A DNA stretch of 46,423 nt from Terriglobia bacterium (GTDB lineage: Bacteria; Acidobacteriota; Terriglobia; Bryobacterales; Bryobacteraceae): assembly GCA_021324615.1 (NCBI GenBank), contig JAJPIT010000109.1, positions 1 to 46,423 on the forward strand, in the 5' to 3' direction. Shown piece after piece: positions 9,178 to 19,852 of the stretch. The notes under the pieces are model-generated. The model was not told where the DNA came from, did no database searches, and saw nothing but the letters and a program-made list of their open reading frames with translations. The first letter of the stretch is position 1. The number at the start of each line of letters is the position of its first letter. The translations under genes were made by a program, and so were the position numbers.

Positions 9178-9308
9178 CTTTATTTAATTAGGATAGCATG
9201 GTCGAAAATAGCGCGCCGGGCTGAAGCGCTCCCCGCGCGCGGGACTGCTACAGTAATAGATTGTCGCGTGTCATCTCTTTTCCGGCCGCCGCCGCCGCTG
9301 CGCGTTCG

Positions 9309-11630
9309 ATGAGCTGGCCGCAGCTCTATCTGGCACTGAGCTTCACGACGCTGGCCACGCTTGTGCTCGAACTGTCGCTGACGCGCATTTTTTCCGTGGT
9401 TTTTCATTATCACCTGGCGTTTCTGGCGATCTCGATCGCGCTGTTCGGGCTCGGCGCGGGCGGCGTTTTTTCCTATGCGGTGGCGGGATGGCGCGGGAAT
9501 CTGTTCGATGCCATGGGATATCTCGCCGGCGGCGGCGGAGCGGCGGCAGTCGCGTCTCTGTGGTTTCTTCTTTCGCGCCAAGGCGAGCCGGGCTATGTCA
9601 CTCTGGCCGCCGTCTACCTGGCCTGCGCCATCCCGTTCTTTCTCGCCGGCGCGGTGGTGTCCCTGGCGATTGCCGAAGCCGTGGAGCGCATCGACCGCGC
9701 CTATTTTTTCGATCTGGCGGGGGCCGCGGGCGGAGGCCTGATCTTCATCGAGTTTCTGAACCTGTTCGGCGGGCCGGACACGGTGATCGCCGCCGGCGTG
9801 TTTTATTGCGTGGCGGCGGCGATCTGGTTCAATCTGTCCGGAGCGAGCCGCTCGCGCGCCGGCGCGGTGGCGTTCTCGCTGCTGCTGGTGACGCTGATGG
9901 TGGTGAACCACAAAAGCCACTGGGTGGATGTTCATTTCGCCAAGGGCCAAAAGCTTCCGGCCGAGCGATTGGTGAAGTGGAACAGTTTTTCCCGCGTGGG
10001 GGTTCACTTTGACGGCATCTGGAGCATTGTCATCGACGGCGACGCCGCCACCGGGATTGCGGCTTTCGATTGGGACCGCTGGAGCGCCGCCGAGCGCGCG
10101 GCGCTCACGCACTGCGGGCCCGGTTCGCCCTATCTGCTGCGGCCCGGGGCCAAGACTTTGGTGATCGGCGCCGGCGGCGGCTACGACGTGGCGCGCGCCC
10201 TGGCCTCGGGCAGCCGCGACGTGACCGCCGTCGAGATCAATCCGATTATCGCCCGCGACGTGATGCAGAAGGAGTTTCTGCGGGAGAGTCACGGCCTTTA
10301 TTTCCGGCCGGAAGTGCGCCTGTATGTCGAAGACGGGCGGTCTTTCGTGCGGCGCAGCGCGGAAAAGTATCAGGTGATTCAGGCCACGCTGGTGGATACG
10401 TGGGCCTCAACCGCGGCCGGCGCGTTCGCCTTATCGGAAAACAATCTGTACACGGCCGACGCGTTTTTCGACTATCTTTCGCACCTGACCGACGACGGCC
10501 TGCTCAGCTTCACGCGCTGGGGTTTTGATCCGCCGCGCGAATCGCTGCGCCTGGTTTCGCTGGCCATCGACGCGCTGGCGCGCATCGGCGAAGGCGACCC
10601 GGCCGGTCACGTCATCGTTCTGCGCGAAGACGCCGGGCGGCTCGGCGGCTGGGGGGCGCAGGATACCGTGCTGATCTCACGGCGGCCGTTCCGGGCCGAA
10701 GACCTGAACCGGCTGCGCGCGGAGCTTCCGGCCGCGCATCTGGATCCGATATACATGCCCGGGGAAAGCGCCGACAACGAATTCAGCAAGCTGCTGCACG
10801 CCACCGACGCGAAAGCGTTCTACGCGCAATACCCCTACGACGTTTCTCCGGTCGGCGACGACCGGCCGTTTTTCTTTTACACGGTGCAGCCGCGCGATCT
10901 GCTGGCGTATTTCCGCGGGAAGAACCGGGAGAACGCCGATTCCAAGATCAACCGCGCCGTGCCGCTGCTGTACGCGGTGGTGCTGGTGAGCGTGGCCGCC
11001 ACGGCCCTGATCCTGCTGCTGCCGCGCGTCCTGTTGGGCAGCCGATTGCCGAAACAAAAAGGGGTTTTGACGTTTTTATGGTATTTTCTGTGCCTGGGCG
11101 CGGCCTACATCCTGATCCAGGTGGCGCTGATTGAGAAATTCGTGCTGCTGCTGGGTCATCCGACGTACGCCGTGACGGTGATCGTGTTTTCGATGCTGGC
11201 GGCCAGCGGCGCGGGCAGCTACCTCAGCCGGGGGGTCTCGACCGACCGCCGGCTGATGGCGCTGCTGGCGGCGGTGGCCGCGCTGGTGACGGCGCTGGCG
11301 TTTGGCGCATCGCCGCTGACCGCCGCCGCCGTGGCCTGGCCGCTTCCGGCGAAGGTGGCGGTCACCGCCCTGGCGATCGCGCCGGCGGCGTTTCTGATGG
11401 GCATGCCGTTTCCCAGCGGATTGCGACGGCTGGAGCGATTCCACGCGCCGTCGATTCGCTGGGCGTGGTCGCTGAACGCGGCGGCGAGCGTGCTGGGCTC
11501 CGCAGCGGCGGTGGTTTTGGCGATTTACCTGGGATTACGCGCGACGCTGCTCGCCGGCGCGCTGCTTTATCTGTGCGCGCTTGGCGTCATCGCCCTGACG
11601 AAATCCGTTTCATCTCTGGAGCGGTGCTGA
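9309..11630 (+). CDS. Membrane-embedded spermidine/spermine synthase-like methyltransferase-fold protein
   Basis: Polytopic membrane protein (773 residues from the ATG; an in-frame TTG at 9261 would give 789) with a Rossmann-type SpeE-like domain between two hydrophobic halves. The first half (about 1-200) has several helices (LYLALSFTTLATLVLELSLT, AFLAISIALFGLGAGGVFSY and others). The central domain has the nucleotide-binding loop VIGAGGGYDVARAL, an acidic strand end AVEINPII and DDRPFFFYTV. The last 250 residues add further helices, including GMPFPSGLRRLE. True spermidine synthases are soluble, about 300 residues; these long membrane fusions are common in environmental bacteria and mostly uncharacterised. 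No polyamine gene lies beside it. Neither candidate start has a good ribosome-binding site. Its end overlaps the convergent hydrolase gene by 21 bp. Confidence 0.85.
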   Translation: MSWPQLYLALSFTTLATLVLELSLTRIFSVVFHYHLAFLAISIALFGLGAGGVFSYAVAGWRGNLFDAMGYLAGGGGAAAVASLWFLLSRQGEPGYVTLAAVYLACAIPFFLAGAVVSLAIAEAVERIDRAYFFDLAGAAGGGLIFIEFLNLFGGPDTVIAAGVFYCVAAAIWFNLSGASRSRAGAVAFSLLLVTLMVVNHKSHWVDVHFAKGQKLPAERLVKWNSFSRVGVHFDGIWSIVIDGDAATGIAAFDWDRWSAAERAALTHCGPGSPYLLRPGAKTLVIGAGGGYDVARALASGSRDVTAVEINPIIARDVMQKEFLRESHGLYFRPEVRLYVEDGRSFVRRSAEKYQVIQATLVDTWASTAAGAFALSENNLYTADAFFDYLSHLTDDGLLSFTRWGFDPPRESLRLVSLAIDALARIGEGDPAGHVIVLREDAGRLGGWGAQDTVLISRRPFRAEDLNRLRAELPAAHLDPIYMPGESADNEFSKLLHATDAKAFYAQYPYDVSPVGDDRPFFFYTVQPRDLLAYFRGKNRENADSKINRAVPLLYAVVLVSVAATALILLLPRVLLGSRLPKQKGVLTFLWYFLCLGAAYILIQVALIEKFVLLLGHPTYAVTVIVFSMLAASGAGSYLSRGVSTDRRLMALLAAVAALVTALAFGASPLTAAAVAWPLPAKVAVTALAIAPAAFLMGMPFPSGLRRLERFHAPSIRWAWSLNAAASVLGSAAAVVLAIYLGLRATLLAGALLYLCALGVIALTKSVSSLERC

Positions 11631-12593
11631 TTCCCGGCGCTGCTGTTCCTCGATCCATTCCAGGACAACTCCATCCAGCCAGAACCGCGGCCGGCCGCGC
11701 GCGATAAATCCCAGATGGCCGCCGTGCTCGACGGCGAGCAGGCGCAGGCACGGATTTGACTGGAAGGCCGGATGCGCGTAGACCGAAAACGGAATCAGCG
11801 GATCGTCTTTGGCAATGATCAGCAGGGCGGGAATGCGGATTTTTTCCAGATACTGATTCGAGGACTGGGTTTTGTAGTAGTTCGCCGCGGTGCCGAAGCC
11901 GAACAGGCGCGCCGTGTAGTATTCGTCAAAATCACGGATGGTGTGGATCCTGGCGAGGTGTTGCGGGGTGTAGATTTCCGGCGCCTGGCGGGCTCGCGTG
12001 CGGATTTTTCGCTTCAGCGCGCGAAGGAAGCGGCGGTCATAGAGGAAATTTTCGCGGCGGGCCAGCGCCGCGGCGCAGGCGGCCAGATCGATCGGCGTTG
12101 AGACCGCGCAAACCCCGGCCAGAAGCTCGCCCGCCCGTTCACCCAGCTCGCCGGCGAGCTTCAGCGAAACGTTTCCGCCGAGGGAAAATCCCACCAGGAA
12201 AATCGGACCCGCGCCGGCGCGCTTGCATTCACGGATCACGTAGAGAACGTCCGAGGTTTGGCCAGAGTGATAGTTGCTGAGGGCCAGATCCTCGGTGCCG
12301 CCGCAGCTTCGCAGATTGATGCGGTGGGCGGCGTAGCCCGCTTGGAGCGCGGCGGCGGACATGCTGCGCAGGTAACCGGCGTTGCTCGATCCTTCCAGGC
12401 CGTGGACCAGAATCAGTTCACCGCGCGCATGGCCCTCCGGGCGCTGGGAATCGACGCGGATTCTTACTCCGGGCTCGGTTTGGTAGATGCGCTGTTTCAG
12501 GGGCCAGCGCTTTTCGCTGTGGGGACGCGGCCAGAAGTTTCCGGCGATGGTGGCCAGGTGAGGATTTTTGAAGAAGGGCCGAAAGGGCTGCAA
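11610..12593 (-). CDS. Alpha/beta hydrolase of the YheT/UPF0017 family
   Basis: Serine hydrolase of 327 residues, family of E. coli YheT and the eukaryotic ABHD1/3 proteins, with carboxylesterase-like activity and uncertain substrate. It opens with the family signature FRPFFKNPHLATI. The oxyanion region is LVHGLEGSS, the nucleophile is Ser137 in VGFSLGGN, the acid is Asp263/264 in AKDDPLIP, and the base is His293 in EHGGHLGF. The start is TTG at 12591-12593: an in-frame TAG stands two codons upstream and the next ATG would delete the signature, so the unusual codon is forced. No strong Shine-Dalgarno precedes it. Directly upstream lies the inverted-repeat-bounded non-coding segment, which may supply or disrupt its promoter. 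Confidence 0.9.
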   Translation of the reverse strand: MQPFRPFFKNPHLATIAGNFWPRPHSEKRWPLKQRIYQTEPGVRIRVDSQRPEGHARGELILVHGLEGSSNAGYLRSMSAAALQAGYAAHRINLRSCGGTEDLALSNYHSGQTSDVLYVIRECKRAGAGPIFLVGFSLGGNVSLKLAGELGERAGELLAGVCAVSTPIDLAACAAALARRENFLYDRRFLRALKRKIRTRARQAPEIYTPQHLARIHTIRDFDEYYTARLFGFGTAANYYKTQSSNQYLEKIRIPALLIIAKDDPLIPFSVYAHPAFQSNPCLRLLAVEHGGHLGFIARGRPRFWLDGVVLEWIEEQQRRESAPLQR

Positions 12594-12627
12594 ACCCTAT
12601 TTTTACGGGATGGCGCGCAAAAAGGAA

Positions 12628-13243
12628 ATGGTTCCAAGTGACCCGTCAGTCAGTTCGTTTCCCGACCGGCATGCACGGCCGAAACCTGGCATCTGAAACG
12701 TCGGGACGTGAGCCCTTTGCTCCCCGCGGCCGGTTTTCTCCCGGCTGCGGATCGATGCGCTGGTGCGCGTCCGCGGTGATTTCCGTTTCAGTAGAAGCCC
12801 GCCCCTCGATGCGGCCTTTCACTCTCCGGCAGCGGCTGCGGATCTTGCGATTCCCAACCGCGGCCGGGTCAACGCTCCTGGCCTTCATCTTCGAAGCGAT
12901 TCCGAAACCTACGCCTGGCCCGTTCGGTCTTCTCACTCCCGCTCCCGCTCAGCTTTTTTTGCCTTACGGGACGCGATCGCCGCGAGGGACCCGTTGCCAA
13001 GTCCGGCCTCGAAACTTCGCGGCTGCCGCCGGATTTCCGCTCCCCTCCAGGACCTCTCGATCCTTCGGGATCCTAGCGCCCGACCCGGCTCCAGCCACGA
13101 AAGCTTGCCTTTGCGGGTTGCCCGATCTTCCTTCGCTCCCCACGGCGCCTGAAATAATCTCTTATTCGAAAGCGCCGCGGATCATCGTTCCGGATCCGCT
13201 ACTTCCCGCCAGGCTCACTGTCCTTCGAACCTCTTGGAACCAT
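12628..13243. repeat. 616-bp structured non-coding segment bounded by 11-bp inverted repeats
   Basis: The gap from 12594 to 13488 holds no credible gene. Within it ATGGTTCCAAG (12628-12638) and its exact reverse complement CTTGGAACCAT (13233-13243) face each other 616 bp apart. Between them are strong local hairpins: a 10-bp stem with one G-T pair (12724-12733 with 12741-12750), a GATCC-TTCG-GGATC tetraloop stem (13059-13072), and a two-tier hairpin 13143-13177 (CGGCGC outer stem, AATAA inner stem, TCTC loop). The plus strand is pyrimidine-rich, unlike the flanking genes. Several frames stay open here (one plus-strand frame runs 231 codons), but the products are Pro/Ser/Arg-rich and lack a ribosome-binding site. 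I infer a structured RNA gene or a non-autonomous mobile element. No clear target duplication is visible. The remaining 13244-13488 shows only a DnaA-box-like 9-mer and the mqnD upstream region. Confidence 0.5.
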
Positions 13244-13363
13244 CCTCATGATGCACCGGATCGGGCCGCCGGTCAACAGAAAAAAGACGATTCGGCGAAC
13301 CTTTCATCAACAAATATCTCGTTTTGGATTTAAAGACTTACGCGCCGGCGGAGGTGGAGGAGC

Positions 13364-13372
13364 TGTGGATAA
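13364..13372 (-). promoter_or_regulatory. Single DnaA-box-like 9-mer
   Basis: TGTGGATAA reads TTATCCACA on the minus strand, identical to the E. coli DnaA-box consensus. It lies in the intergenic region ahead of mqnD. One isolated copy without a cluster, an AT-rich unwinding region or replication genes nearby does not make an origin. It may be chance or a minor DnaA binding site. Confidence 0.25.
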
Positions 13373-13488
13373 AACATGGCCTGAAACATTTGTTGTGAAT
13401 GTTGCGGCAAGCACCGGCCGGGCGCGGGCGGCGGGGTTGCGCGCGCTGGCGGCGGCGTACCTGCTATCATTGTGGGTTCGTTCCCGGA

Positions 13489-14331
13489 ATGACTTCCACA
13501 CCTGCTGAGATCGTCTGCGCCCATAGCCCCGATTCCGACGACGCGTACATGTTTTATGCGTTGGCCACCCGGAAGATCCGTTCGCCGCTGGTGCAGTTCC
13601 GGCACGTGCTCGAAGATATTCAGACGCTGAACCGCAAGGCCCGCGATGGCGAATACGAGCTTACCGCGATTTCCTACCATGCCTATCCGTTCGTGGCCGG
13701 CCGCTATGTGCTGATGGCCTCCGGCTCCAGCGTCGGCGACGGCTACGGTCCGATGGTGGTGGCGGCGCGGCCCATGGCGCCTGAGGAGCTGAAGGGGAAG
13801 CGCATTGCGATTCCGGGCAAGCTCACCACGGCGTATCTCACGCTGCGCTTGCTCCAGCCCGATTTTGCCGCGGTGGAAGTGCCGTTCGATCAGATTCTGG
13901 AGGCGGTGAGCGAGAACAAGGCCGAGGCGGGGCTGGTGATCCATGAGGCGCAGCTCACCTACGCCAGGGGCGGTTTTCACAACGTCATCGATCTGGGGCG
14001 ATGGTGGAAGAATACTTACGGGCTGCCGCTGCCGCTGGGGGCCAACGCGCTGCGGCGGGACCTGGGCGCGGAGCTGGCTTCGGAGTGCTGCCGGCTGATG
14101 CGCGAAAGCATCCAGTATGCGCTTGATCATCGCGAAGAGTCGCTGATCTACGCGATGCAGTTTGCCCGCGATATGGAAGCTCCGCTGGCCGAAAAATTCG
14201 TGGGCATGTATGTCAACCATTACACCGTGGATTGCGGGGATCTGGTTCCCCAGGCGGCGCAGAAGCTGCTCGACCTCGGCCACGAAGCCGGATTGATCCC
14301 GCACCGCGTCGCAGTCGAGTTTGTGCGGTGA
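13489..14331 (+). CDS. mqnD: 1,4-dihydroxy-6-naphthoate synthase-like protein (menaquinone biosynthesis, futalosine pathway)
   Basis: Protein of 280 residues resembling MqnD, which converts cyclic dehypoxanthinyl futalosine to 1,4-dihydroxy-6-naphthoate in the alternative menaquinone pathway. Recognised by its periplasmic-binding-protein fold and motifs: AHSPDSDDAYMFYAL at the N-terminus, LEDIQTLNRKA, TAISYHAY, GYGPMVVA, AGLVIHEAQLTYARGG and LPLPLGANALRRDLG. His152 in VIHEA corresponds to the catalytic His of characterised MqnD. The ATG at 13489 is chosen over an upstream in-frame start because the extra 30 residues are Arg-rich and unrelated to the family; TATCAT 19 bases upstream may be a -10 box. 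The stop overlaps the next gene's GTG by 4 bases, indicating translational coupling. A general MqnA/MqnD-like binding protein is the main alternative. Confidence 0.85.
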   Translation: MTSTPAEIVCAHSPDSDDAYMFYALATRKIRSPLVQFRHVLEDIQTLNRKARDGEYELTAISYHAYPFVAGRYVLMASGSSVGDGYGPMVVAARPMAPEELKGKRIAIPGKLTTAYLTLRLLQPDFAAVEVPFDQILEAVSENKAEAGLVIHEAQLTYARGGFHNVIDLGRWWKNTYGLPLPLGANALRRDLGAELASECCRLMRESIQYALDHREESLIYAMQFARDMEAPLAEKFVGMYVNHYTVDCGDLVPQAAQKLLDLGHEAGLIPHRVAVEFVR

Positions 14332-16246: not shown

Positions 16247-19200
16247 ATGGCGGAAAATCCTGCGCCGACGGTGAACAGTTGGCTTGAAGAAGAGTTGTAC
16301 CAGCAGTATCGCCGCGATTCGCGCGGCATGGAGGCGGGCTGGCGGGAGGTATTCGAGGCGAATGGCGCCAACGGCTCGGCGCCCGCGGCGGCTCCGCTGC
16401 GGCAGACGGCGGCGCCGCCTCCGCCGCCGCCGGCTCCGGGCGAGCAGTTGGTTCCGCTGCGCGGGCCCGCGCTGCGGATCGCCGAAAACATGACGGCGAG
16501 CCTGGCGATTCCCACCGCGACCAGCCAGCGGGTGATGCCGGTGAAGGTGCTCGAAGAGAACCGGCGGGCGATCAATCAGTACCGCAAAATTTCCTACACC
16601 CACCTGATCGCGTGGGCGATCGTGGCCGCGCTCAAAAAAATTCCCGCGCTGAATCAGGCTTTTTCGGAAAATGGCGGCGAGGCGTTCCGCGTGCTGCGCG
16701 AGCATGTGAATCTGGGCGTGGCGGTGGACGTGGCCGGCAAAGACGGCGCGCGATCGCTCAAGGTGCCCAACATCAAGGGCGCCGACACGATGAATTTCGC
16801 CGAATTCGCGGCGGCCTACGATGATCTGATCGTGCGGGCGCGCGAAAACAGGCTGGCGGTTGCGGATTTTGAAGGCACCACGATTTCGCTGACCAATCCG
16901 GGAACGGTGGGGACCATGGGATCGAACCCGCGGCTGGTGCCGGGCCAGGGCGCGATCATCGCCACCGGCGCCATCGATTATCCGCCGGAGTACCGCGGCA
17001 TGCCGGAGGACATGCGGGTTTCGCTGGGCATCGGCAAGGTGATGACGGTCACCTGCACCTACGATCACCGGGTGATTCAGGGGGCCGAATCGGGAGCTTT
17101 TCTCGGCAAGCTGCAGGCGCTGCTTGAAGGCGACGAGGATTTCTACGGCGGCATTTTTCGGGATCTGGGCATCCCGCAGAAGCCGGTGCGCTGGGAACCC
17201 GACCAGGCGTCGGCGCCGGTGATCAACGCCGATCCGGTGAAGCAGGCGGCGGTGGCGCGCTTCATTCAAGCCTGGCGGGAGCGCGGGCATCTGGAAGCGG
17301 ATCTGGATCCGCTGGGTTCCAAGCGGCCGCCGCATCCCGATCTGGAGCCGTCGGCGCACGGCCTGACGATCTGGGATCTGGACCGCACCTTCCATGCCGG
17401 AAACTTCGGGGTGATGACGCTGCGGGCGCTGCACGAGCGGCTGCGCGCGACCTATGCCGGCAAACTCGGCGTGCAGTACATGCACATCGACAATCCGGAG
17501 GAGCGGCGCTGGCTGGAGCAGCGGATGGAGCCGACGGCGAATCAGTGGCCGCTCGATGCGGCGACGCGCCGCCGGATTCTGAAAGACATCGTGGAGGCCG
17601 AAGGATTCGAGCTGTTTCTGGACCACCGCTTCAAGGGGCACAAGCGTTTTTCGCTGGAAGGCGGCGAGGCGATGATCGCCATGATCAGCGAGCTGCTGGA
17701 GCGGCTGGCGGCCGGCGGCGGGCAGGAGTGCGTGATCGGCATGTCGCACCGCGGCCGGCTGAGCACGCTGGTGAACATCGTCGGCAAGAGCATGGTGCAG
17801 CTTTTTTCCGAGTTTGAGGGCGAATCGGACGAATCGATCGAAGGGCAGGGCGACGTCAAATATCATCTGGGCGCGACCGGCGTGCGCAAGACCTCGACGG
17901 GCAAGAGCGTGACGGTCACGGTGGCGTTTAATCCGAGCCATCTGGAGGCGGTGAATCCGGTGGCGGAAGGGCTGACGCGGCCCAAGCAGGACCGCATCGG
18001 CGACGAGCAGCGGGAGCGGGTGATACCGCTGCTGATTCACGGCGACGCGGCGATGGCCGGCCAGGGGATCGTGGCCGAGACGATGAATCTTTCGCAGGTG
18101 CCGGGCTACGACACCGGGGGCACGGTGCACATTGTGGTGAACAATCAGATCGGCTTCACCACCAATCCCGAGCAGGGGCGCTCGTCCACCTATTGCAGCG
18201 ATGTGGCGCTGGCCTTTCAGGTTCCGGTGTTTCACGTCAATGCCGACGATCCGGAGATGTGCGTGCGGGCGATGCAGCTCAGCTTCGATTACCGTCAGAA
18301 GTTTCATAAGGACGTGGTGATCGACATGGTCTGCTATCGCCGCTACGGCCACAACGAAGCCGACGATCCCAGCTACACGCAGCCGATTCTGTACCGGAAG
18401 ATCCGCGCGCAGAAGCCGGTGACGGAACAGTACGCCGAACGGCTGGCGTCGGAAGGCCTGATCACGCTCGAGGAAGCGCGGAGTTTCCGCGAGGCGCAGC
18501 GCGCGCATCTGTATGAGATTTACGACCGGGCGCAGAAGCAGAAGGAGACCTACGAGCTTCAGGAACTGAGCGCGGTTCCGGCGGAGGCGATCCCGATGGA
18601 TCATCCGCCGGGAGCGGTGAAGCGCGAGACGCTGGAGCGGATTGTGGAAGGCGTGACGACGTTTCCGCCGGACTTTCATATTCATCCGAAGCTGAGCGGC
18701 TTTCTCAAGAAGCGCCGCGAGAGCCTGAAGTCGGCGGAGGCGCAGATCGATTGGGCGCTGGCCGAAGTGCTGGCGTTCGGCAGCCTGGTGCTGGAAGGAA
18801 CGCCGGTGCGGCTGAGCGGGGAGGACAGCGGGCGGGGGACCTTCAGCCAGCGGCACGTGGAGTATCACGATTACGAAAACGACCGGGTGTGGGTGCCGCT
18901 CCAGCACTTGGCGCCGGATCAGGCGCGGTTTGAGGTTTACAACAGCCCGCTTTCGGAGTTCGCGGTGATGGGCTTTGAATTCGGCTACAGCGTCGCCGAT
19001 CCGGTGACGCTGGTGCTGTGGGAAGCGCAGTTTGGCGATTTCGCCAATGGCGCGCAGGTGATCATTGATCAGTTCCTGGCGGCGGCGGAGTCCAAGTGGG
19101 GCCAGCCGAGCGGGCTGGTTCTGCTGCTGCCGCACGGCCAGGAGGGCCAGGGTCCGGAGCACTCCTCGGCGCGCCTGGAGCGGTTTCTGCAACTTTGCGC

Positions 19201-19852
19201 CGACAACAACATGCGCGTGGCCAATTGCACCACGCCGGCGCAGTATTTCCATTTGCTGCGCCGCCAGATGCTGGGCGGGCCGGACCGCCGCGGGCTGCGG
19301 AAGCCGCTGATTATCGCGACGCCGAAGAGCCTGCTGCGCCACCCCAAGGTGGTTTCCCGGCTCAGCGAGTTCACCGACGGCGTGTTCCAGCCGCTCTTGG
19401 ACGACGCCTCGATCGCCGACGCGGCGGCGGTGCGGAAGATCCTGGTCTGCAACGGGAAGATTTACTACGAGCTGGAAGCGGCGCGGGATGAGCGCAAGCT
19501 GACCGACACGGCGATCATCCGCATCGAGCAGCTTTATCCGTTTCCGCAGGCGGAGTTCGCGCAGGTTCTGGCGAAGTATCCGGCGGCGGGCGAGGTGGTG
19601 TGGGTGCAGGAGGAGCCGCGCAACATGGGCGCGTGGGCGTTTGTGCGCGGATGGATTCAGCCGATGATCCAGTCGCAGCACCGGCAGTTGGGATACGCGG
19701 GACGGCCGGAGAGCGCGAGTCCGGCTCCGGGATCGCTGAAGCGCCACAATCAGGAGCAGGCCGAGCTGATCGATCAGGCGTTCCGCCCGCCGACGATGGA
19801 GCGGACGTCGTGGAAGAGGCTGGTGAGGCGGCAGAGTTCGGCCAAGCCCTGA
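16247..19852 (+). CDS. kgd: Fused 2-oxoglutarate dehydrogenase E1 / dihydrolipoamide succinyltransferase-like protein
   Basis: Citric-acid-cycle enzyme of 1201 residues, the multifunctional Kgd/OdhA type best known from actinobacteria. Residues 1-40 are the E1 N-terminal segment (SWLEEELYQQYRRD), 41-70 an Ala/Pro linker with six consecutive prolines. About 75-310 is an E2-type acyltransferase core (LRIAENMTASLAIPTATSQR to YDHRVIQGAESGAFLG; DHR near residue 274). About 340-1201 is thiamine-dependent E1, with GMSHRGRLSTL, the TPP/Mg loop GDAAMAGQG at 599-607, NNQIGFTTNP, a YGHNEADDPS block and ending in QEEPRNMGAW. No lipoyl domain is present, so it must use the lipoyl domain of a separate E2 protein, as in actinobacteria. 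TAAAAT nine bases ahead of the ATG could be a -10 box producing a near-leaderless transcript. A 1171-codon antisense ORF across it is a GC artefact. Confidence 0.95.
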   Translation: MAENPAPTVNSWLEEELYQQYRRDSRGMEAGWREVFEANGANGSAPAAAPLRQTAAPPPPPPAPGEQLVPLRGPALRIAENMTASLAIPTATSQRVMPVKVLEENRRAINQYRKISYTHLIAWAIVAALKKIPALNQAFSENGGEAFRVLREHVNLGVAVDVAGKDGARSLKVPNIKGADTMNFAEFAAAYDDLIVRARENRLAVADFEGTTISLTNPGTVGTMGSNPRLVPGQGAIIATGAIDYPPEYRGMPEDMRVSLGIGKVMTVTCTYDHRVIQGAESGAFLGKLQALLEGDEDFYGGIFRDLGIPQKPVRWEPDQASAPVINADPVKQAAVARFIQAWRERGHLEADLDPLGSKRPPHPDLEPSAHGLTIWDLDRTFHAGNFGVMTLRALHERLRATYAGKLGVQYMHIDNPEERRWLEQRMEPTANQWPLDAATRRRILKDIVEAEGFELFLDHRFKGHKRFSLEGGEAMIAMISELLERLAAGGGQECVIGMSHRGRLSTLVNIVGKSMVQLFSEFEGESDESIEGQGDVKYHLGATGVRKTSTGKSVTVTVAFNPSHLEAVNPVAEGLTRPKQDRIGDEQRERVIPLLIHGDAAMAGQGIVAETMNLSQVPGYDTGGTVHIVVNNQIGFTTNPEQGRSSTYCSDVALAFQVPVFHVNADDPEMCVRAMQLSFDYRQKFHKDVVIDMVCYRRYGHNEADDPSYTQPILYRKIRAQKPVTEQYAERLASEGLITLEEARSFREAQRAHLYEIYDRAQKQKETYELQELSAVPAEAIPMDHPPGAVKRETLERIVEGVTTFPPDFHIHPKLSGFLKKRRESLKSAEAQIDWALAEVLAFGSLVLEGTPVRLSGEDSGRGTFSQRHVEYHDYENDRVWVPLQHLAPDQARFEVYNSPLSEFAVMGFEFGYSVADPVTLVLWEAQFGDFANGAQVIIDQFLAAAESKWGQPSGLVLLLPHGQEGQGPEHSSARLERFLQLCADNNMRVANCTTPAQYFHLLRRQMLGGPDRRGLRKPLIIATPKSLLRHPKVVSRLSEFTDGVFQPLLDDASIADAAAVRKILVCNGKIYYELEAARDERKLTDTAIIRIEQLYPFPQAEFAQVLAKYPAAGEVVWVQEEPRNMGAWAFVRGWIQPMIQSQHRQLGYAGRPESASPAPGSLKRHNQEQAELIDQAFRPPTMERTSWKRLVRRQSSAKP

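Follow-up and report, generated by a model that had tools for sequence, protein, structure and literature searches.

A gene for a large structured RNA almost certainly lies on the minus strand of the window, which is the whole 46,423-nucleotide stretch of acidobacterial DNA analysed here. The explanation that best accounts for the observations overall, and that we moderately favour, is a free-standing noncoding RNA gene of ~615 nucleotides with its own promoter, whose product would serve as a k-turn scaffold. For this gap the original prediction offered two candidates, a large structured RNA encoded by the purine-rich minus strand and a MITE-like mobile element. The first of these is supported by the existence of homologues, by covariation, by a strand-specific preference for G-U pairs and by a conserved minus-strand promoter. 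To our knowledge, few bacterial noncoding RNAs equal this one in size and structural conservation.

Table 1. Features of the predicted RNA gene and its neighbours, ordered along the minus strand.
Feature	Position	Strand	Basis
PF02621 menaquinone-biosynthesis protein, divergent upstream neighbour outside the RNA (start 13489 picked by eye inside the listed ORF 13399-14331)	13489..14331	+	Pfam
Conserved TGAKGAAA box upstream of the promoter (here TGATGAAA), which may be a regulator or UP-type site	13302..13309	-	upstream alignment, pattern
Putative -35 hexamer TTGACC	13271..13276	-	conserved sequence
Putative -10 hexamer CATCAT, 17-nt spacer	13248..13253	-	conserved sequence
Predicted noncoding RNA gene, ~616 nt between outer ends of closing stem	12628..13243	-	ends, homologues, fold, strand
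Closing stem P1, 5' strand (GGUUCCAAG...)	13226..13241	-	consensus fold
Arm I; predicted k-turn core C13187, GA 13183-13182, GAG 13138-13136	13107..13214	-	fold, motif counts
Sub-domain enclosing arms II-IV, closed by 13106-13102/12799-12795	12795..13106	-	fold
Arm II; predicted k-turn core ~C13076, GA 13072-13071, GAG 13042-13040	13016..13101	-	fold, motif counts
Arm III; k-turn-like core C12982, GA 12978-12977, GAG 12938-12936 (alternatively 12944-12942), the weakest case among the five	12900..13014	-	fold, R1, motif counts
Arm IV; k-turn-like core C12874, GA 12870-12869, GAG 12824-12822, by the relaxed rule only	12800..12898	-	fold, R1, motif counts
Arm V; predicted k-turn core C12757, GA 12753-12752, GAG 12722-12720	12693..12791	-	fold, R1, motif counts
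Small 3' arm VI, without k-turn signature, covariation weaker	12660..12684	-	fold, motif counts
Closing stem P1, 3' strand (...CUUGGAACC)	12630..12645	-	consensus fold
U-rich stretch directly after P1, candidate 3' end or terminator	12619..12629	-	sequence
Alpha/beta hydrolase, downstream neighbour outside the RNA	11610..12593	-	Pfam

Promoter, fold and repeated arms

The gap is bounded by exact 11-bp inverted repeats at 12628-12638 and 13233-13243, 616 bp apart as originally described, and among the 15 inverted pairs listed for positions 12400-13500 only this end pair has 100% complementarity. Of 30 loci retrieved by blastn (own genome counted), 25 have both ends again, and two of the other five are cut by a contig end; the ends are thus more than chance. 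The end-to-end length is 580-642 nucleotides in 24 of the 25 loci with both ends and 492 nucleotides in one. In the consensus fold the inverted ends form the two strands of closing stem P1, which explains them without a mobile element. Because P1 is nearly invariant it contributes no covariation, and its support lies in that invariance. GC skew in the gap falls to -0.26 and AT skew to -0.35, against mostly positive GC skew in the flanks, which bears out the predicted strand bias opposite to the surroundings.

On the minus strand, homologues carry TTGAC, a spacer of 17-18 nucleotides and CATNNT ahead of GGTTCC. A degenerate pattern of the RNA start, whose start letters are therefore constant by construction, was used to collect 91 stretches from the named genome collection. 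The regions upstream of these stretches have T at -35, A at -11 and T at -7 in 91 of 91 cases each. Judged by conserved sequence signals, the RNA gene has its own sigma70-type promoter (13276-13248) and its own 3' end. Transcription probably begins at ~13243-13241 on the minus strand, and the U-rich stretch is probably the RNA 3' end or a terminator. Upstream of the promoter, positions 13302-13345 form a conserved AT-rich region that includes TGAKGAAA and a looser GTAAC...GAAACA.

From 82 full-length RNAs, two near-identical sequences were dropped to give an alignment of 80, whose consensus fold has 177 base pairs. All of the top 36 covarying column pairs and 44 of the 50 strongest fall inside the predicted fold, a count that favours the fold in that both were derived from the same alignment. 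A home-made substitute for R-scape, which compares the pairs with 15 null alignments generated along the tree, passes nine of the 177 pairs at E<=0.05, all nine within the fold. The covariation check proposed with the original prediction, run in this form, thus gave covarying pairs beyond chance. No significant covariation was found outside the fold by the same null, and hence none was seen between molecules. Across the whole fold 89% of cells are paired, compared with 35-40% when the fold is slid. For arm I the corresponding values are 91.0% and 27.6-43.0%, with 335 cells changed on both sides versus a shuffled mean of 109.

Within the whole fold, G-U accounts for 15.9% of cells and A-C for 2.1%. 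Because predicting a fold from one strand biases the pair counts toward that strand, two controls were run. In the 36 top covarying pairs, which were picked without regard to strand, G-U makes up 13.3% and A-C 1.0%, and this excess of G-U over A-C indicates that the RNA strand is the minus strand. The opposite-strand fold is weaker (energy -231.6 versus -324.9), and there G-U is 2.1% and A-C 10.9%.

Two of the three hairpins named in the original prediction are the tips of consensus arms: 12750-12741/12733-12724 in arm V and 13181-13172/13148-13139 in arm I. The third, the palindrome at 13059-13072, is present in the sequence, but its halves pair elsewhere within arm II (13070-13067 with 13045-13042, and 13064-13061 with 13052-13049).

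Arms I, II, III and V share an internal loop with C-NNN-GA in its 5' strand and GAG in its 3' strand, and arm IV has this motif too, offset by one helix position. Under a strict rule the motif is found in arm I of 78/80 RNAs, arm II of 64/80, arm III of 27/80, arm IV of 18/80, arm V of 50/79 and arm VI of 1/80. Dinucleotide-shuffled controls gave means of 8-11 and a maximum of 18 for arms I-V, and reversed sequences gave 2, 12, 6, 19 and 5, respectively. At the sequence level, the strict rule finds the elements of a k-turn (a C-G pair of the C-helix, a 3-nucleotide bulge, tandem G-A and a helix, following the definition in the available text of PMC9723947) in arms I, II and V. Arm IV fails it, with 18/80 versus 19/80 in reversed sequences.

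A relaxed rule, devised after inspection of arm IV, accepts any two bases as the opening pair of the following helix. It gives 78/80, 30/80, 38/80, 68/80 and 58/79 for arms I-V against a shuffled maximum of 18, and under it 70 of the 80 RNAs have the motif in at least three arms. Arm III shows the motif in fewer than half of the RNAs under either rule. These counts make it likely that at least three of the arms contain genuine k-turns.

The arms also resemble one another when searched with R1, a covariance model built on arm I. When applied to 25 chosen loci, R1 returned the 25 expected matches and 35 more at E<=10. Of these extra matches, 32 fall, in the same orientation, within other arms of the RNAs already matched, and three fall outside. 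Most are weak, with 11 of the 35 reaching E 0.01, all 11 inside the RNAs.

Distribution, settings and copies

The blastn search for homologues that the original prediction had suggested, made with positions 12590-13350, located the element in 47 of 101 genomes (own genome counted). Of the 91 stretches collected with the start pattern, 80 have titles, and 78 of these are acidobacterial (Bryobacterales, Solibacter, Sulfopaludibacter, Terriglobia and others). The remaining two, one of which is L096, are labelled otherwise. A whole-RNA profile matches all 91 stretches, although L053, L075 and L085 match only over the first ~56-70 positions.

In the family to which the window belongs, R1 has a match in 143 of 237 genomes and in 58 of 76 genera. 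The other 94 genomes have no R1 match, which suggests that the RNA is dispensable in, or has been lost from, part of the family. In a class-wide draw 63 of 399 genomes gave a match, all 63 within the same family, and in a phylum-wide draw the only two of 396 were the window's own genome and one congener. Few candidates were scored per genome under strict filters in these draws, such that distant members may be missed. Two genomes of the sister family carry full-length copies. Four of the 23 members of the genus (own genome counted) lack an R1 match, and a deeper scan of those four gave a best E of 0.05. No element was found in viral contigs (exact pattern search), phage records or plasmid records.

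A combined pattern of upstream box and promoter was searched in 150 family genomes; 32 of them contain it, with 39 sites in all, and the reversed control gave none among the matches listed. Twenty loci are given for these 39 sites, and at 19 of them the RNA is present, in some cases only partly; the exception is in genome G036. At that locus (L169:1565-1894) the same promoter module precedes a different, 330-nucleotide RNA-like sequence that has a long closing stem, a U-run, and AUCGGGC and AACGGGC in common with the large RNA. By these shared features it is possibly a shrunken variant. A DNA search of the 237 family genomes found only short local matches to it elsewhere, and comparison with Rfam gave none at E<=5.

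Neighbouring genes and their orientation vary between loci. In the commonest setting, genes for a GAF protein and a YCF48-like protein lie upstream and an aminotransferase gene lies downstream, facing the RNA. In a second setting, a glycosyltransferase-9 gene lies upstream and points away from the RNA. Locus L063 joins the upstream side of one setting to the downstream side of the other.

Six same-genome pairs of copies, recognised by a shared assembly prefix, were considered, and the five that can be compared (L050/L059, L069/L111, L090/L098, L095/L104 and L042/L078) have identities of 90-96%, which points to gene conversion at the sequence level. Hand-picked RNAs that share a setting but come from different genomes have a mean identity of 73%. 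Four of the five pairs are mutual nearest relatives, and in four of five the two copies occupy different settings, the fifth being L069/L111, where L111 has no assigned setting. Likeness of same-genome copies across settings points to concerted evolution, which suggests that sequence identity between copies matters. In some two-copy genomes (G240 C6 and C61 at 301-430, G198 C303 and C563, L068/L105, and L075/L085) the two copies are truncated at an identical position in the RNA, seemingly by contig ends, which is what an assembly interrupted by near-identical copies would look like.

Tentatively, the RNA may have grown by internal duplication of one k-turn arm to reach five k-turns, which would array several k-turn proteins or make the molecule pseudo-symmetric; gene conversion would then keep its copies alike across loci for joint assembly. 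Alternatively, the arms may have converged on the motif.

Known large RNAs and possible function

The window, the gap and four loci match no Rfam 15 family at the curated score, and the gap gave three matches far below the cut-offs. The open-licence literature, in the portions available (including PMC11109978 and PMC8632094), contained no description of this RNA that we could find. The RNA is therefore apparently new, with one possible exception. The doubtful Solibacter-1 motif carries a question mark, is confined to Solibacter usitatus and has no Rfam entry, according to the accessible part of PMC2864571. The acidobacterium that gives this motif its name belongs to the same group, and comparison with the motif was by its table row rather than by sequence, so the two may be identical.

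By analogy, the RNA would work most like OLE RNA, yet it does not match OLE in the Rfam comparison. As described in the text available for PMC9723947, OLE RNA is ~600 nucleotides long with an ornate fold and a k-turn that binds YbxF/OapC and is required for function, and the available part of PMC12054373 places it mostly in Bacillota. Both RNAs are ~600 nucleotides, ornate and equipped with a k-turn, those of the new RNA being predicted from sequence. In contrast to OLE, the new RNA occurs in Acidobacteriota, lacks an Rfam match and has up to five k-turn-like arms, where one k-turn is described for OLE in that portion of PMC9723947.

We propose that the minus-strand gene is transcribed from its own sigma70-type promoter and that the inverted ends pair as P1 to close the molecule. 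This would leave five long arms with a k-turn-like internal loop (C-NNN-GA / GAG) and a small sixth arm. The k-turns would kink the arms and serve as binding sites for a YbxF/L7Ae-type protein, as OLE RNA binds OapC, and the RNA would act in trans as a ribonucleoprotein scaffold. The arm motif suggests a k-turn ribonucleoprotein scaffold, the analogy with OLE suggests a YbxF/L7Ae-type partner, and the variation in neighbours and their orientation suggests action in trans. We regard this trans-acting scaffold role as about evenly balanced. If it holds, the repeated k-turn-like arms predict the binding of several YbxF/L7Ae-type proteins. The gene is apparently a chromosomal one in one acidobacterial family, and the biochemical role of OLE-, GOLLD- and ROOL-like RNAs is still described as unknown in the available literature, PMC12286853 included.

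GOLLD and ROOL are large, ornate bacterial RNAs of unknown function that are phage-encoded (available part of PMC12286853), and the new RNA resembles them in size, in its ornate fold and in a function that is still unknown. This likeness raises the prospect, unlikely in our judgement, of an RNA-only homo-oligomeric particle held together by docking of arms from different copies, with protein in a secondary role. The similarity of same-genome copies is expected if different copies must fit together, but the lack of significant covariation outside the fold means that none between molecules is seen. Moreover, unlike those phage-encoded RNAs, the new RNA has no Rfam match, is absent from viral contigs (exact pattern), phages and plasmids, and lies among recurrent chromosomal genes; no association with phages or prophages was found.

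Some stretches are more conserved than pairing requires, for example GuAGCGg, AUCGGGC and gcAACGGG (capitals at least 95%). Conserved purine-rich loops might form the active site of a ribozyme whose k-turns only fold the RNA, a reading slightly less probable still than the oligomer, since no Rfam family is matched and RNase P is excluded. Bacterial RNase P RNA is likewise a large structured RNA gene, but it is a separate gene in 40 of the 41 genomes searched. The idea that the new RNA replaces RNase P was rejected on the same count, as only the window's own assembly lacks RNase P RNA. That genome (G000) is rated 99% complete, yet RF00010 has no match anywhere in it, the new RNA included; an assembly gap is probably responsible.

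Neighbouring genes, mobility and coding potential

A cis-acting leader or riboswitch for the downstream gene, here the hydrolase, would fit the window in that the next gene lies on the same strand. We consider this very unlikely because the commonest setting has the aminotransferase facing the RNA, the downstream genes differ between loci, and the RNA ends in a closed stem and a U-rich run.

The arrangement in the window, with the divergent PF02621 gene and the co-directional hydrolase gene, is otherwise seen only in G010. In the window's own genome, the aminotransferase of the commonest setting occurs without the RNA or the GAF gene in the 5.6-kb stretch taken. A PF02621 locus was obtained from 15 of 17 relatives, and a search of its 1-1.5 kb upstream flank found the hydrolase in none of these 15. 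Wherever empty sites were looked for, synteny had broken down, and no clean empty site was obtained.

The inverted ends, and the departure of the own-genome and G010 locations from the commonest setting, are what a non-autonomous, MITE-like element could offer in its favour. This candidate of the original prediction is even less credible than a leader. The window's own genome has one copy of the element and the carriers listed have one to three, rather than many, and the neighbourhood of the element is often syntenic. Promoter and fold are conserved, P1 accounts for the ends, and phage and plasmid records lack the element.

The gap had been described as free of protein, and this agrees with the absence of a Pfam match in its three scanned frames and with sense ORFs no longer than shuffled ones (longest, median 68 versus 69 aa). 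The longest antisense ORFs have a median of 108 aa versus 69 aa shuffled, as a purine-rich, U-poor RNA would yield by composition. Among homologues, a length divisible by three is seen in 196 of 1170 indels (anything above 12 counted as 12); at the sequence level, indels disregard the reading frame. A Pro/Ser-rich protein encoded on the plus strand, where frames of 231 and 129 aa stay open, is the least tenable reading and was rejected, as there is no Pfam match, indels ignore the frame and substitutions follow RNA pairing. Thus, homologues and covariation exist, where their absence was to count against an RNA, and no codon-like pattern appears, as judged by off-frame indels and pairing-driven changes rather than by a codon-substitution test proper. 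If antisense Pro/Ser-rich 'hypothetical proteins' are annotated, the RNA may account for them.

Elsewhere in the window, a 789-aa frame at 9261-11630 without a Pfam match resembles, by eye, a membrane protein that includes a spermidine-synthase-like portion. At 16247-19852, a 2-oxoglutarate dehydrogenase E1 is fused to an E2 acyltransferase domain, an arrangement also known from actinobacterial KGD.
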